Below are positions 8,506-30,223 of a DNA stretch of 42,491 nucleotides, in pieces (positions within the stretch are counted from its first letter, which is position 1; the number at the start of each line of letters is the position of its first letter). Origin of the DNA: Lachnospiraceae bacterium (GTDB lineage: Bacteria > Bacillota > Clostridia > Lachnospirales > Lachnospiraceae). Under the pieces are notes generated by a model. It made no database searches. It was not told where the DNA came from and saw only the letters and a program-made list of their open reading frames with translations. The position numbers and the translations under genes are program-made. The stretch is taken from contig JAFYCS010000081.1 of NCBI GenBank assembly GCA_017539565.1, forward strand, positions 1 through 42,491. The letters run 5' to 3'.

Positions 8506-10672
8506 ATTCGACTGTTATCTGCGGTCCTGTGTAAGTAAACTTGCCTGTCTTGATCTTTCCTGCCACTTTCTCATTCTTCTTGTTAAGCTTGTACAGCTTA
8601 GCGGTATCGCTTATTGTCAGATCACCTGTGAGGGTTATATCACCCGTAAAGCTTAAGCTGTGATTCTTGGCATTGATCGTAATCGATTTGTAGCCTTTCT
8701 TCGGAAGCAGGAATTTACCGGCCATATTTACATCGCCTTTAATATTCACTTCAAAGCTTATCTCGGTCTTATTCTTCTTCGCTTCTTTGAGCAGGCTGTT
8801 CATTTCTGCAACAGCATCCTTCCAGACACCGTATTTATGGCCGTTATATTCTATAACTTCTCCAAATATGCAGACCTTTGAGCCGCTGAGATAATACAGG
8901 TAGGTTGAATGAGTGTTAGCCGTAAGATCCGAGCAGTCAAAAACTTTCTTTAAAGTTTCCGGAGAGATCTTTTTTGCGCTGCAGGACAATATCTGTGTTC
9001 CGTCGGGCAGTTTTTCATCGGCGTGAAATTTTATACTTCCTGATACGCTTCCTTTAAGTGCTATAGGCTTAAAGCCCTTGTAAAGATTAAGCTGTGTATC
9101 CCCTTCACCCGACAGTTCTTTTTTGACAGTCATTTTACATCCGCTGCCTAATGTAAGTGATGAGTCGGATTCAAATTTAAGTGTATCGGTGGTAAGGTTG
9201 TTTACTGATATCGATCCAAGGAGATCTAACCCATTCTTAACTGTACACTTGGTTGAGAGCGCATCAAATATTACAGCTTTAGCTACTGTAAAACCTTTCT
9301 TTGCATTAATGCTAAGTTTAACGCTCACGCCTTCCTTCTTTGCATGAACCGCCTTGATGGTCAGATTCTGAAGTCTTAAAGGGCACTTAGCCGTAAGCTT
9401 GCTTCCCTTGATCACTATGCTGTGTCCGTGTCCCATTATCATGACCGACTTGGCTTTTTTAGGGAATGTGAGCGGCTTCTCTCCTATCATATCGCTCTGA
9501 AGATCGATAACATAGTCCGTCTCTTCCGTCATATTCGCTATCGCTTCCTTAACCGAATTGTATTCTTTACCGTTCATGGTAAGCTTACCGGTAGCAGGAT
9601 ATTGTTCTTTAGCTGGTTTAGAACTTCCGCCGGGAGCTTTTATCTTAAACTCATACTCGCAATCAGCAACCCCCCTGATCTTTAGATAATACTTTCCTGG
9701 GGCAAGCTTTTTGCTGATGACGGTCGCGCCTTTATTGCTCAAATAGCTTTGTGCGATCTTATTTTCAAACTTATCATCCGAATATAATTCGGCCCAATCT
9801 CCTATCGATCCGCCTTTTTCATAAATCTTGACCGTACCTGCTTTAGTTACTTCAAATGAATAAAAGTCCGCATAATTTGATGCTTTATAATCTAAGGTTC
9901 CGTAGTATGTTGTATTGTTAGATATTGTCTTGTAGGATTCTTCGGAATCAAGTTCCTCTTCCCAGTATTCACTTTCCTTAAAATCGATCTGAAAAGCTCC
10001 CGTTTGCGGACCTTCCGAAGCCTTAATGTTATTCACGCCCACCTGTACGATATACGTGGTTCCCGGTCTCAGCCCGGCCTTTTTTGCCAGTACTTTCTTT
10101 TCGCCGGCCTCTCCTTTGACAACTCCTACATTGTGAATATCCCGTGGATTATCTCCTTGATGTACTACAACCGTAAGATCATGATCCTTATTGCCCTGGA
10201 CATATAACTCAATATAGCCTTTCTGCTCCGGAGTAAATATATACCACTGATATTCCAGTGATTTAGATATTGAAACAGCAACTTCCTTACCAAATTCGAG
10301 CTTTTCGGGCTTATCAAGGGTTCCGGTCTCATCAGAAAACTCTTCCCCTTCCTGATCCTCCTCACCAGTCTGTGCATCATCCCCCGCTGTTTCATCTTCT
10401 GTTACAGCTTCTTCATCTGCTGCATTTTCCGATACAGCTTCTGTATCAGCCTCATCCTCAGAAACAGTTTCGTTTTCGGAAACGGCTTCATCTTCCGGTA
10501 AAACTTCGTTTTCCGATATAGCTTCGTTTTCGGATACCGCTTCATCTTCGGAAACAGCTACCACCTCTGTATCGGCATCATCAGACGCCAGTACAGGTGC
10601 ATAGTTCCCAAGAAGCATCGTTGCAGTCATTAAGCCGGCGATACCTTTTTTGAAAACTTCCCTGATCTTCAT
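8504..10672 (-). CDS. Secreted acidic protein with PPC-like domain and beta-repeat C-terminus (paralog B)
   Basis: 722 residues. Sec signal peptide (1-29, cleavage after VLA), then an acidic linker (31-115) built of imperfect repeats such as SEDEAVSENEAISENE. Two PPC-like beta-sandwich segments follow; the second reads YYGTLDYKASNYADFYSFEV and ends KLAPGKYYLKIRGV. The C-terminal half has repeated strand motifs (MGHGHSIVIKG; INAKNHSLSFTGDITLTGDLTI). It matches the protein at 718-2787 nearly end to end, including the final GKIK-K-YTY/FTYTGPQI segment. The ATG at 10670-10672 has AAGGAGGAATAAAG upstream, so the longer reading from 10711 is rejected. There is no cell-wall anchor. Function unknown; an adhesive or envelope role is inferred only from secretion and fold. 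Confidence 0.85.
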   Translation of the reverse strand: MKIREVFKKGIAGLMTATMLLGNYAPVLASDDADTEVVAVSEDEAVSENEAISENEVLPEDEAVSENETVSEDEADTEAVSENAADEEAVTEDETAGDDAQTGEEDQEGEEFSDETGTLDKPEKLEFGKEVAVSISKSLEYQWYIFTPEQKGYIELYVQGNKDHDLTVVVHQGDNPRDIHNVGVVKGEAGEKKVLAKKAGLRPGTTYIVQVGVNNIKASEGPQTGAFQIDFKESEYWEEELDSEESYKTISNNTTYYGTLDYKASNYADFYSFEVTKAGTVKIYEKGGSIGDWAELYSDDKFENKIAQSYLSNKGATVISKKLAPGKYYLKIRGVADCEYEFKIKAPGGSSKPAKEQYPATGKLTMNGKEYNSVKEAIANMTEETDYVIDLQSDMIGEKPLTFPKKAKSVMIMGHGHSIVIKGSKLTAKCPLRLQNLTIKAVHAKKEGVSVKLSINAKKGFTVAKAVIFDALSTKCTVKNGLDLLGSISVNNLTTDTLKFESDSSLTLGSGCKMTVKKELSGEGDTQLNLYKGFKPIALKGSVSGSIKFHADEKLPDGTQILSCSAKKISPETLKKVFDCSDLTANTHSTYLYYLSGSKVCIFGEVIEYNGHKYGVWKDAVAEMNSLLKEAKKNKTEISFEVNIKGDVNMAGKFLLPKKGYKSITINAKNHSLSFTGDITLTGDLTISDTAKLYKLNKKNEKVAGKIKTGKFTYTGPQITVE

Positions 10673-22958: not shown

Positions 22959-23921
22959 TCATTCAGCGCGGTTGCCTTTCAGTTTATCGTACCTGATGCA
23001 GATATATACAGCTGCAAGAGGCAGGATCACATAGTCAAAGGCGTTTCCTAAAAATTCAATGATCTTCAGTACGGCAGGCTCTGTAGTCCAGCCAAACAGG
23101 CCGTGTGATATTTTGGGCGTAATGTCGCTGAAAGCATGGAGCAGCATTACCAGAGCCAGATTTTCGCTTAGCATATATATAGCTGCGATAAACAATCCCC
23201 AAAGGGCTGTGGCAGGAACCTGGATAAGTGGATTCTCTCCAAAGAAAATATTAGGAAGATGACTCAGTCCAAAGATCAATCCGGAAATCATGACTGTAAA
23301 TAACCTTTGTTTCACGGTAGCTGTATTCCACTTAATAAGCCCGTCCATCAACAATCCCCTGTCTCTGGCTTCTTCATAAAAACCAACGGTAAACTGCTGA
23401 ATTACCACTATTGTTAAGGGTGCTATGTTTTCCGGAACATATACATCTGCAAAAATGATCTTTACCAGCGGAAGCGAGATGTATATCAGGAAGGGAAGCA
23501 TCATAAGCCAGATCTTCGGCATAAGCTTATTTGTAAAGAGTGGTCTGCGGGGGCTCTTGATAAGTATGATCGAAACCGTACCAAAAATAATCCTTAATAC
23601 CATATCCGCGATCAATAATGTATTATAGTCAGGGAAAATATCCAGATACACCATAGCTATCTCGATCGCATAGAATACCAGCATGATGACCACTGCCTGT
23701 ATGATCTGGTTTTTTATCACCTTCTTTTTGTCTGAATAGTCACTTTCAGTATAGACATTTTCTGTATGGGCTTTTTCTGTATGGTTCTTTGGTGCAGGGT
23801 AATTTTTTGTATAATCCTTTTCTATGAGTCCCTTTTTTGTAAGATCCATTTCTATCATGTTCTTTTCTGTATAATCCTTTCTTATAAGATACTTTTCTGT
23901 AATGAACTTTTTCTTCTGCAT
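22959..23921 (-). CDS. CPBP-family intramembrane metalloprotease with pentad-repeat N-terminus
   Basis: 320 residues. CaaX/Abi (CPBP) membrane protease family, linked to bacteriocin immunity and peptide processing. Active-site motifs: EEARDR (Glu183, Glu184, Arg188), FGLSH (His221) and HAFSD (His262, Asp266), set within about eight transmembrane helices (from about 70). Residues 6-65 are an unusual hydrophilic extension of twelve pentads (FITEK, DYTEK, DLTKK, DYTKN, NHTEK, VYTES and others). The ATG at 23919-23921 is the longest start, but AAAGGA lies too close to it, so translation might begin inside the extension (Met22 for example). First gene of the ABC/S41 cluster by position. Confidence 0.85.
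   Translation of the reverse strand: MQKKKFITEKYLIRKDYTEKNMIEMDLTKKGLIEKDYTKNYPAPKNHTEKAHTENVYTESDYSDKKKVIKNQIIQAVVIMLVFYAIEIAMVYLDIFPDYNTLLIADMVLRIIFGTVSIILIKSPRRPLFTNKLMPKIWLMMLPFLIYISLPLVKIIFADVYVPENIAPLTIVVIQQFTVGFYEEARDRGLLMDGLIKWNTATVKQRLFTVMISGLIFGLSHLPNIFFGENPLIQVPATALWGLFIAAIYMLSENLALVMLLHAFSDITPKISHGLFGWTTEPAVLKIIEFLGNAFDYVILPLAAVYICIRYDKLKGNRAE
23727..23906 (-). repeat. Twelve degenerate 15-bp repeats at the start of the CPBP gene
   Basis: In-frame 15-bp units, easily seen on the plus strand as recurring CTTTTCTGTATAATC-like blocks, encode pentads of the form x-(aromatic/aliphatic)-(T/I)-(E/K)-K. Threonine recurs at residues 8, 18, 28, 38, 48, 53 and 58. Confidence 0.8.
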
Positions 23922-24074
23922 ATCCTTTATGCTGTCTGCATTCTTTTTGGCAGTTAGTTCATATTATCTGTACTCTCACACCGTGAAGTTTTTTATCTAT
24001 AGGTTAAGGCTGCGTTTTTTAGTCATTACATCCCTTACCTGTCGATGTTCACATAATACTAGATATGAATATAT

Positions 24075-24116
24075 AAAAACAGTGACCGCAGTCATATCTT
24101 CATATGACCGCGGTCA
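24075..24116 (-). terminator. Terminator-like hairpin ending the hairpin array
   Basis: 15-nt arms 24083-24097 and 24102-24116 with a CTTC/GAAG loop and one imperfect pair. On the minus strand the stem is followed by CTGTTTTTATATATTC. It would end any transcript running from rlmB through the 74-bp array. Confidence 0.75.
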
Positions 24117-24119
24117 TGT

Positions 24120-24546
24120 ATTCTAATACTTTAACGTCTTCGGCTAACACATGTGCCGTTTAGGGCTTTTGTGTTAGCCGATATCAGAGAATTTATGCTC
24201 TAATATTTCCGGTTAACACATATGCCATTCAAGCCCTTTGTGTTAGCCGATATCAGAGAATTTATGCTCTAATATTTCCACTCCGGCTAACACATGTGCC
24301 GTTTAGGGCTTTTGTGTTAGCCACTATCATAGATTTCAAACTCTAATATATCTGTTTCGGCTAACACACGCTCTGTTTAAGTCACTTATGTTAGCCAAAT
24401 AGAAAAAATTCAAGCCTTAGTATAATAGAAAAGGCTAACACATCTGCCGTTTTCGACATTTGTGTTAGCCGATATCAAAGAATTCATGCTCATATATATC
24501 TGTTCCGGCTAACACATGCGTCATTTAAAGCCTTTGTGTTAGCCCC
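24120..24546. repeat. Array of six 38-nt hairpins at 74-bp period
   Basis: Six units of GGCTAACACA, an 18-nt loop and TGTGTTAGCC lie at 24142-24179, 24211-24248, 24285-24322, 24359-24396, 24433-24470 and 24507-24544. Start-to-start distances are 69, 74, 74, 74 and 74 bp. Linkers are 31 then 36 bp and related to each other; linkers 1 and 2 are identical over 31 bp. Hairpins 1 and 3 are identical. Loops differ between the other units. Stem changes in units 2 and 4 leave a wobble pair on one strand. The period is not a multiple of three, so it is not a coding repeat. Linker-like sequence also precedes unit 1 and follows unit 6. Confidence 0.95.
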
Positions 24547-24627
24547 GGATAAGGAATTTACGCCCGTCTGAGCTCTGCAAGTATCCAGTCCCGGGAAATG
24601 ATATCATATGCATTGCCGCAGTATAAA

Positions 24628-24649
24628 GGGAGATTATTTATAATCTCTC
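24628..24649 (-). terminator. Palindrome overlapping the rlmB stop codon
   Basis: GAGATTAT, TT, ATAATCTC (24630-24647) with two more flanking pairs spans the rlmB stop codon. It is followed by only a short T stretch (CCCTTTATAC), so it would be a weak terminator at best. Confidence 0.35.
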
Positions 24650-25377
24650 TGTCTTACTATCTCATACGCAAGGACTCCGGCGGCAACCGATGCGTTTAAT
24701 GAATCCAGCTTACCCATCATGGGGATGGATACTTTATAGTCACATTTTTCTTTTACCAGCCGGCTTACTCCTTCGCCTTCCGAACCTATTATCAGCCCAA
24801 TTGAACCGGTAAGGTTTGCTTTATACATCACATCTCCGTCCATATCTGCACAGGCAAACCACATGCCTTCTTTTTTCAAAGACTCTATGGTCTGAACCAG
24901 ATTTGTAACTCTGGCAACAGGCAGATAATTCAGTGCTCCTGCGGATGTTCTGGCAACAGTGGGTGTAAGTCCTACTGCCCTGTTTTTAGGAATTACCACA
25001 CCATGTGCTCCAGCCTGATATGCGGTACGGATGATCGCGCCCAGATTATGGGGATCCTCAATACCGTCAAGGAAAAAGATAAAAGGTGCGCGTCCGCTTT
25101 CTTCCGCCGCTTTCATTATGTCCTCAAGCTCCGCATATTCGTAAGCAGCAGCTATTGCGATCACGCCCTGATGCTTACCTGTTTGTGACAGCTGATCCAG
25201 GCGTTCCTTAGCTACATACTTTATAAGGCAGTCTGATTTCTTTGCCTCCCTTTTTATGGTAAGGACCGGACCATCCTGACATCCGTCCAGCACATAGATC
25301 TTATCTATCGTCTTGCCGCTGCGGAATGCTTCCAGCACTGCGTTACGGCCTTCTATCTGTGATTCACTGTATCCCAT
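24634..25377 (-). CDS. rlmB: 23S rRNA (guanosine-2'-O)-methyltransferase RlmB
   Basis: 247 residues. SPOUT-class (SpoU/TrmH) enzyme that 2'-O-methylates a guanosine of the 23S rRNA peptidyl-transferase region. The N-terminal substrate-binding domain starts IEGRNAVLEAF. SpoU motif 1 is DPHNLGAIIRTAYQAGAHG, motif 2 LIIGSEGEGVSRL and motif 3 IPMMGKLDSLNASVAAG, which form the knotted SAM site. The ATG at 25375-25377 has GGAG 9 bases upstream. It is last in the ispF-cysS-mrnC-rlmB order. Its C-terminus is normal for the family. Confidence 0.95.
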   Translation of the reverse strand: MGYSESQIEGRNAVLEAFRSGKTIDKIYVLDGCQDGPVLTIKREAKKSDCLIKYVAKERLDQLSQTGKHQGVIAIAAAYEYAELEDIMKAAEESGRAPFIFFLDGIEDPHNLGAIIRTAYQAGAHGVVIPKNRAVGLTPTVARTSAGALNYLPVARVTNLVQTIESLKKEGMWFACADMDGDVMYKANLTGSIGLIIGSEGEGVSRLVKEKCDYKVSIPMMGKLDSLNASVAAGVLAYEIVRQRDYK

Positions 25378-28495: not shown

Positions 28496-30223
28496 TTAAG
28501 CGCCACCACCAAGTAAAGGATTTGCATTCCCTGCAGCAAGAATAGGATTTCCTCCGCCGCCCAGCATGGGATTGGAACCTCCGGCAGGTGTCTGGGTTAT
28601 ATAAGGGATTGCTCCGTTAACAGGCGCATACGGATTACCCATTCCGGGACCCGCTGCAAATGCAGGTACGCTGGCTGCCTGGCCGGGTGTAGCTGCGTAT
28701 GCAGGCTGTGTGGACTGCTGTGCATATGCAGGTGTAGAAGGGGTAGGTGTAAGCTGATAAGCCATTCCTCCGGGGCCTGCACCGGGCTGTACTGCATAGG
28801 GAGGCACTGAAGACTGTCCGCCTCCGTTTGCTCCTGCAGCAACATACGCTGCCTGCTGGATCTGATATGCTGTAGCCTGTCCGAAAGATCCTCTTTCAGG
28901 AGCTATATAATTTTCAAATGATATCTCACCGTGCAGACCGCCTGCAGGCTGGCGTGTACCATTCTTTAATTCTTTTTCAGCCGCACGCAGATTGGGTGAT
29001 TCAAAAATGGATGCATTAGCCTTTTTCTCTTCTTCCTCCGCACGAAGCTTCTCAAGTATCGTAGGTCCGGAAACCTCACCGGAAAGAGCACCTCCACCGC
29101 CAACTCCGCAGTTGAGTGCAGCTGATTCAAACACACCGGTTACCGCAGGTGCAGGCTGCTGACGCTGCGCGTACTGCTGCTGATAAGGTGCCGCACTCTG
29201 TACGGGCCTTGCTGCAGTAAAACCGCCGGAACGGCTCAGTGATGAAGATGTCTGATATGCAGCTGCAGGAGCCTGGTATGCTGCTGCAGGAGCCTGATAA
29301 GGTGCTGCGGGTGCAGCAGGCGCAGGCTGCTGGTATAATAATGCCTCGGGGGGAATAGCCGCTGCTGCAGCTGCTGCTGCAGGGATCCCGCCTGCCGGTG
29401 CTGCAGGCTGATATGCAGGTGCTGCAGGCTGATATGCAGGTGCTGCAGGTGTAACAGGTGCCGCAGGCTGATATGCAGGTGCTGCAGGTGCCACAGGTGT
29501 TGCGGGCTGGTATGCCGGTGCAGCAGGGGCTGCGGGTGCAGGCTGCTGATATAACAATGCTTCAGGCGGAACAGCTGCTACAGGTGCCGCGGGAGCTGCA
29601 GGTGTAACAGGTATTGCTGCTACAGGTGCCGCGGGAGCTGCAGGTGCAGGTTCCTGATAAGCCGGCGCTGCTGGAGCTTCGGGTGCTGCAGGCGCTGCTG
29701 CAGGTACCTCACCGCTCTTTTTATAATTCGGATCATAAGCCGGCGCAGATGCCAGTACTCTGGGCTTATATGCCGGTCTGAATGTAGGTATCGTATCCTT
29801 AGGGAAGAGTGTCCTGGGATCTACCGTGGATACTCCTCTGCTCTCTGTCGTTGCAGGTGCGGGCTCTTCATATGTAGGTACTACAGGAGGATCAGAATCA
29901 GGATATGAAGGTTCCTCATAAGCCGGAGCTGCGGGTGCAGCAGGGGCGGGTTCATAGGAACGTACAGACTCTTCATATGCGGGAGCTGCAGGTGCAGGTG
30001 CGGGTTCAGGTGCCGCAGGTTTTAAGAATTCCAGTTCAGGGACTATATCTGTACCCGCAGAAGTCTTACTGTATACACTGCCGAAAGATATGGAACCGCT
30101 GACAGTGCCGCCCTTTTTCTTCATTTCCTTAACATATTTTTTAATGTTATACTTGCAACCGGGACAAAACTTGGCACTGTCATCCACAAAACGGCTGCAC
30201 TGCGGGCAGGTAATATTCGCCAT
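28496..30223 (-). CDS. Zinc-ribbon protein with long Ala/Pro/Tyr-rich repeat region
   Basis: 575 residues, function unknown. The N-terminal zinc ribbon has CPQC (6-9) and CPGC (20-23), followed by a lysine-rich helix. From about residue 75 to 330 the chain is low-complexity Ala/Pro with repeated PAAPAYQP, EEPAPA and IPPEALLYQQPAPAAPAAP units. After a more ordered stretch (ILEKLRAEEEEKKANASIFESPNLRAAEKELKNG in pieces) the tail has NPMLGG, NPILAAG and NPLLGG repeats. No signal peptide or membrane helix. AGGAGG stands 9 bases before the ATG at 30221-30223. First gene of the unit that runs to rlmB. The nucleotide repeats make length variation between strains likely. Confidence 0.85.
   Translation of the reverse strand: MANITCPQCSRFVDDSAKFCPGCKYNIKKYVKEMKKKGGTVSGSISFGSVYSKTSAGTDIVPELEFLKPAAPEPAPAPAAPAYEESVRSYEPAPAAPAAPAYEEPSYPDSDPPVVPTYEEPAPATTESRGVSTVDPRTLFPKDTIPTFRPAYKPRVLASAPAYDPNYKKSGEVPAAAPAAPEAPAAPAYQEPAPAAPAAPVAAIPVTPAAPAAPVAAVPPEALLYQQPAPAAPAAPAYQPATPVAPAAPAYQPAAPVTPAAPAYQPAAPAYQPAAPAGGIPAAAAAAAAIPPEALLYQQPAPAAPAAPYQAPAAAYQAPAAAYQTSSSLSRSGGFTAARPVQSAAPYQQQYAQRQQPAPAVTGVFESAALNCGVGGGGALSGEVSGPTILEKLRAEEEEKKANASIFESPNLRAAEKELKNGTRQPAGGLHGEISFENYIAPERGSFGQATAYQIQQAAYVAAGANGGGQSSVPPYAVQPGAGPGGMAYQLTPTPSTPAYAQQSTQPAYAATPGQAASVPAFAAGPGMGNPYAPVNGAIPYITQTPAGGSNPMLGGGGNPILAAGNANPLLGGGA
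29393..29530 (-). repeat. Short tandem repeats encoding Ala-Pro-Ala-Tyr-Gln-Pro units
   Basis: Plus-strand GCAGGTGCTGCAGGCTGATAT-like 21-33 bp units recur at least four times in close succession inside the zinc-ribbon gene. Confidence 0.75.

Follow-up and report, generated by a model that had tools for sequence, protein, structure and literature searches.

Helix-phased palindromic arrays in Lachnospiraceae and the genes of predicted EDxHD-type nucleases that accompany them

The 42,491-nt contig JAFYCS010000081.1 of a Lachnospiraceae bacterium (GenBank assembly GCA_017539565.1), referred to here as the window, carries an array of six palindromic units of 38 nt at 24142-24544. The stem of these units recurs elsewhere in the same genome, and the largest arrays found there lie on both sides of a gene for a 271-amino acid (aa) nuclease-like protein (contig C36, positions 9678-10493). 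We interpret the window array as one of the dispersed copies of a repeat that is cognate to a sequence-specific endonuclease, in a system that resembles REP/RAYT but would be built on an unrelated nuclease (probability about 0.6). An earlier note on this DNA, made from the window alone, missed the cognate nuclease gene, the other arrays and the paralogous systems because none of them is visible in the window.

The exact palindrome pattern occurs 12 times in the 3.37-Mb genome (forward count), four of them in the window array, and a reversed control pattern 0 times, so the pattern in the window is not due to chance. The arms recur on C36 as a 13-unit run, a five-unit run and three units further along. 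They are also found on C29 (one unit), at the end of C55 (five units, the last degenerate) and on C110 (four units). The 13-unit and five-unit runs enclose the open reading frame (ORF) of the 271-aa protein (locus L005, array stem GGCTAACACA), and in two further species its relatives (82% and 59% identity) likewise lie between arrays of the window's stem. The gene upstream of the enclosed nuclease gene is presumably comEC in all three species. In a single scan of genome contigs, from which records close to our genome were possibly excluded, the pattern was present in 21 stretches, all with Lachnospiraceae titles; the source of two of them is sheep omasum or water buffalo rumen. In one locus (L006, 6875-7471) the gene of an sce7726-family protein adjoins a three-unit array of the window's stem.

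Unit statistics were collected from 121 units in 27 sequences. The gap between the arms is 18 nt in 75 units, 19 nt in 43, 20 nt in two and 17 nt in one, and the unit centre is A-rich. The T4-A pair is invariant (121/121), while stem position 6 is an uncompensated C.T mismatch in 37 units. At the terminal pair we counted 13 G.T and nine A.C wobble pairs with no clear strand bias. In other arrays of the window's stem the linker mostly stays 36 nt long and its sequence varies between arrays. Inside arrays, linkers recur as near copies and loops recur as well. The copies of an array resemble one another, which shows that local duplication clearly takes place.

Database searches with the 271-aa protein gave no Pfam match better than E 0.06 and no NCBIfam match at E 1. 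The protein is predicted to carry an EDxHD/Vsr/TnsA-like nuclease domain. Residues E165, D195 and E210-H211 are invariant, the nuclease residues being the same in all 23 family members aligned, and no HuH motif is found among the invariant columns. A Pfam search of the 23 members at E 0.01 detected no transposase, Nop or RNA-binding domain; Pentapeptide was the sole hit, in one member. Among PADLOC profiles, PDC-S68 matches all 23 members and HEAT_CxxC_PDDEXK 14 of them. The PDC-S68 matches of the first member cover residues 152-264, that is, the C-terminal domain. The N-terminal domain, predicted alone, resembled no known fold convincingly, most of its matches being coiled-coil or prefoldin-like, so that its role in reading the arms is putative. 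The order of sheet and helix in it may be akin to that of integrase arm-binding domains.

Homologues are widespread in the family and often present in several copies; the genus gave 27 matches in 15 of 35 genomes, with up to four per genome. One of the 27 (L062) lies at the end of a long frame and belongs to a helicase-like protein, which has the C-terminal nuclease domain alone and no N-terminal region. At the order level, 113 of 393 genomes and 54 of 174 genera match at 1e-10, mostly in the same family and one other; here up to six candidates were scored per genome, and the weakest matches may have only the domain in common. A sample of the phylum gave 13 matches among 398 at 1e-20. Six of these are full-length and belong to the same family; the other seven lie outside it, start at profile position 75 or later and sit in frames of 213-1269 aa. 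A phage or plasmid origin was considered and rejected: the pattern was absent from the viral contigs scanned, and the ten relatives on viral contigs match residues 139-267 alone. In eight of nine plasmid records the match begins no earlier than residue 140, and in the ninth it spans 81-220. Two phage records were found, one of which is an unverified 4.2-kb 'Bacteriophage sp.' scaffold with 91% coverage and 34% identity; no periodic array was seen within the roughly 1 kb inspected upstream of its match.

The palindromic arrays in the flanks of the paralogues have stems of their own, such as GGCTGTAATT, CACCGCC, AAAGCATCA, ATGACCCA, ACGTGTCG, CTGCGTGTC, GACACGAA and TAGGTAAA; in a few flanks the stem caller detected no array. 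Association was measured in 40 loci of 10-20 kb, hand-picked from the places listed by the order survey so as to cover many genera and to avoid contig starts. When three exact 8-bp hairpins were required, an array was seen beside ten of the 40 genes; as many stems are shorter, this strict criterion gave way to tests for 6-mer pairs and for periodicity. Upstream windows held at least three inverted 6-mer pairs in 27 of 40 cases, downstream windows in 3 of 39 and control windows in 26 of 724. A periodic array was present in 32 of 40 upstream windows compared to 10 of 576 control windows, and at least one of these ten positive controls is itself a dispersed array with the stem of the neighbouring nuclease (L121). 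Arrays flank the gene on both sides in three species and elsewhere lie mostly upstream alone, where the median distance from array end to gene match is 75 nt (31 arrays, range 2-693). We regard the pairing of the protein with an array as nearly certain.

The stem follows the lineage of the nuclease. The automatic caller gave a usable stem in 40 of 63 loci; the other 23, in which the call was weak or absent, were set aside. For L038 the caller probably picked a word of the linker in place of the stem. Over the 40 loci, stem similarity correlates with protein identity (Mantel r 0.31, reached by 0 of 5000 permutations). The share of stem pairs with at least five bases in common rises from about 2% at 20-40% protein identity to 56% above 60%. 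A nuclease from another genus with 50% identity to that of our genome has the stem GCTAACAATT.

The periods of the arrays are quantised in helical turns. The period set comprised 109 entries (some genes twice), reduced to 70 non-redundant at 80%, of which 56 had a period: 19 at 51-54, 19 at 60-64, 13 at 71-75, three at 83-85, one at 41 and one at 68 bp. They centre near 53, 62, 73 and 84 bp, or 5, 6, 7 and 8 turns. The best common repeat is 10.4 bp with R 0.81 (the same at 10.5), which none of 2000 uniform sets matched. With one period per cluster the result was 0/5000 for 37 clusters at 60%, 0/5000 for 21 at 50% and 29/5000 for 15 at 45%; at 40% the four clusters left are too few for a statement on phasing. 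Steps of about ten bp also occur within single flanks (62 and 53 bp in L060, 83 and 73 in L203, 85 and 74 in L126). Of 32 tabulated arrays, 30 have an arm-to-arm span of 34-42, a figure that varies with the arm length called. The unit is therefore constant and the linkers differ in steps of whole turns, as expected for a protein on double-stranded DNA and not for an RNA. It is very likely that the array consists of double-stranded, helix-phased protein binding sites. The earlier note had calculated that 74 bp is about seven turns and had proposed selection, for example for binding of a dimeric protein, over plain duplication. The non-redundant loci bear out the turn count, selection is supported and so is protein binding through the phasing, while the dimer is still something that we infer. 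Such a lattice of periods may serve as a genome-level signature that tells double-stranded protein binding from RNA structure.

Dispersal is observed with more than one stem. In the single-contig genome G282, a different stem (TTACGTGT) forms 41 units, against 1 for the reversed control. They are spread over 13 places, of which one is at the cognate nuclease, and are mostly 38 nt long with a period of 71-72. Genome G336 has 26 units on five contigs. The scattered copies, which as random phase-less singles would have been an ordinary repeat expansion, are mostly phased arrays plus some singles. The window's stem is present in six of 35 genomes of the genus. A nuclease with at least 50% identity is found in five of these six and in one of the 29 other genomes (p 1.1e-4, with the cut-off set post hoc and phylogeny ignored). 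Behind rlmB, the repeat occurs in two of 30 loci (three of the 30 had less than 500 nt to inspect), with six units in our genome and one in the sister genome G001. Genomes G050, G020 and G048 have no units there and keep the terminator; the next gene also differs in G050 and G020, and the intergenic sequence is too diverged to read insertion edges or target duplications. Among 49 remote arrays, 29 lie between co-directional genes, 10 between convergent and three between divergent genes, three inside ORFs (129-345 aa) and four at contig edges, as judged from crude ORF calls.

These observations suggest the following mechanism. The protein, probably a dimer, would bind inverted half-sites about 38 bp apart, with its N-terminal coiled-coil and beta-sheet region reading the arms. 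With linkers of whole turns, neighbouring units would lie on the same side of the double helix and allow cooperative binding, by which the gene beside an array could be autoregulated. An occasional cut at an array followed by repair from another copy may expand the units and seed new intergenic sites. Whether the nuclease drives the spread of the units is, in our estimate, an even bet. A further and more tentative proposal is that the arrays represent a new class of selfish or domesticated repeat system, in which an EDxHD-type endonuclease, acting as a dimer, recognises a palindromic address, binds phased arrays cooperatively and copies units intergenically by break repair, and in which several orthogonal protein-array pairs coexist in a genome, each with its own code.

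The protein could instead be mainly an autoregulated DNA-binding regulator. In that case the upstream arrays would be its operators, the dispersed ones would mark target genes or chromosome structure, and cleavage would be a secondary activity. The short distance between most upstream arrays and the gene match agrees with this, as does helical phasing with cooperative binding. We consider it rather unlikely in view of the nuclease residues unchanged in every member, the remote arrays between convergent genes (10 of 49, with three alone between divergent genes), and the variation of array presence and unit number between close species. A defence role, with an anti-phage effector and arrays acting as self-marks, decoys or regulatory brakes, would account for the PADLOC matches, since the C-terminal domain is common to candidate defence proteins, and it suits the several paralogues per genome. 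The PDC-S68 matches of the first member are confined to that domain, however, and arrays also lie far from the gene, which makes a defence nuclease improbable.

Transcribed repeats processed to hairpin or guide RNAs for the nuclease, in the manner of CRISPR or TIGR, would fit an array that adjoins a nuclease-like gene, has perfect arms that could fold in RNA and, in the window, follows the rlmB-like stop codon and precedes a terminator-like hairpin of that strand. An RNA hairpin with an inner stem was suggestive at the unit level, where some inner pairings exceed shuffles (sum 41 of 38-nt units, z 2.9; sum 38 of 39-nt units, z 4.2). It was dropped because none of 20 registers stands out between arrays: sum 41 of 38-nt units was reached by 643 of 1000 shuffles, and the lowest, sum 38 of 39-nt units, by 44 of 1000. 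The earlier note's alternative of a conserved RNA structure is therefore not supported, given also the uncompensated C.T mismatch. The quantised periods, the missing RNA-binding domain in the Pfam search and linkers that recur rather than being unique spacers add to the evidence against an RNA array, which we judge very unlikely. An ordinary minisatellite near the gene by happenstance would explain why copies are alike within arrays. As the whole explanation it is contradicted by the match of stem and lineage, the period quantisation and the enrichment upstream of homologues, and the similar geometry across unrelated stems speaks against it too; we give it hardly any credence.

Our preferred interpretation, a dispersed cognate repeat of an endonuclease, was compared with known systems. 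According to PMC2817692, REPs flank the RAYT gene, coevolve with it and follow its presence, and PMC8266576 describes TnpA-REP proteins as HuH enzymes that process single-stranded REPs. The REP/BIME-RAYT systems ('REPtrons') as portrayed there share with ours many extragenic palindromes, an adjoining cognate nuclease gene, coevolution, which is found here in the stem-protein correlation, and an abundance tied to the nuclease, which is found here in the comparison of stem-bearing and other genomes. The differences are the predicted EDxHD/Vsr/TnsA-like nuclease and the arrays phased in whole turns, and we do not file the system under REP/RAYT because the defining HuH nuclease is not there. The EDxHD homing endonucleases (I-Bth0305I) are among the closest known systems; EDxHD enzymes can dimerise on very long sites, according to PMC3943268, which would suit a 38-bp palindrome. 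TIGR-Tas, as described in PMC12045711, likewise has tandem, partly palindromic arrays upstream or downstream of the gene, but our system has no Nop domain by Pfam and no alternating short repeats with 9-nt spacers, and it is phased in whole turns. Unlike CRISPR, it does not combine constant repeats with unique spacers. It shares the C-terminal nuclease domain with PADLOC PDC-S68; those profiles are 1202-1273 residues long, whereas the proteins of the loci examined for stems have 254-338 aa, a distinct N-terminal region and an accompanying array.

Among the titles and abstract openings listed by the literature searches, none describes a nuclease-array system of this kind. The system is probably new, because protein family and array are absent from those lists and from the libraries searched (Rfam, Pfam and NCBIfam); it is apparently a large and undescribed system in Lachnospiraceae. 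If our interpretation is true, the REP/RAYT way of life has evolved a second time, independently and with an unrelated nuclease fold, in a bacterial family that is common. A class of intergenic repeats would then be accounted for, and a protein family without a Pfam entry would gain a function open to testing. The natural series of protein-DNA pairs, with readable changes of specificity, could be useful for work on the DNA recognition code and on phased binding arrays.

The features of the window are listed in Table 1. A recount agreed with the earlier note on six units with steps of 69, 74, 74, 74 and 74 bp and on the identity of units 1 and 3. The array itself is real, but it had been taken to start at 24120. 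The stems are less uniformly conserved than claimed, as both arms are exact in four of the six units and units 2 and 4 deviate. The stretch is gene-free as described, with no ORF of at least 80 aa in 23921-24634. A search of the whole window with Rfam at the gathering threshold matched a tRNA elsewhere and no covariance model in the array, and the window contains no homologue of the 271-aa protein.

Table 1. Coordinates of the array and neighbouring features in the window.
Feature	Position	Strand	Remark
Palindromic unit 1	24142..24179		both 10-nt arms exact
Palindromic unit 2	24211..24248		left arm GGTTAACACA
Palindromic unit 3	24285..24322		identical to unit 1
Palindromic unit 4	24359..24396		right arm TATGTTAGCC
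Palindromic unit 5	24433..24470		both arms exact
Palindromic unit 6	24507..24544		both arms exact
Five linkers and units 2-5	24180..24506		first linker (units 1 to 2) 31 nt, the other four 36 nt
SpoU-family rRNA methyltransferase gene, rlmB-like	24634..25377	-	array comes after its stop codon
Terminator-like hairpin and T-run	24075..24118	-	on the far side of the array; relatives that lack the array have a similar one after rlmB
Rce1-like CAAX protease gene	22959..23921	-	opposite side of the array from the rlmB-like gene

Other repeats are present as well. The 5' end of the Rce1-like gene (23803-23917) carries tandem 15/30-nt repeats that give lysine- and tyrosine-rich repeated words in the N-terminus, and a long Ala/Pro/Tyr-repeat protein with a zinc-ribbon-like start is encoded at 28496-30223 of the window. 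At the intergenic site of L007 (L164, L165), another repeat-like sequence with CTCAGGATGAC words is present in G020 and G001, with several copies in G020. In L008 (1551-1811) a short tandem repeat encodes a repetitive ORF (VVYRRIPDPVCRCKLT), beside a gene pair that we take to be MecI/BlaR-like.
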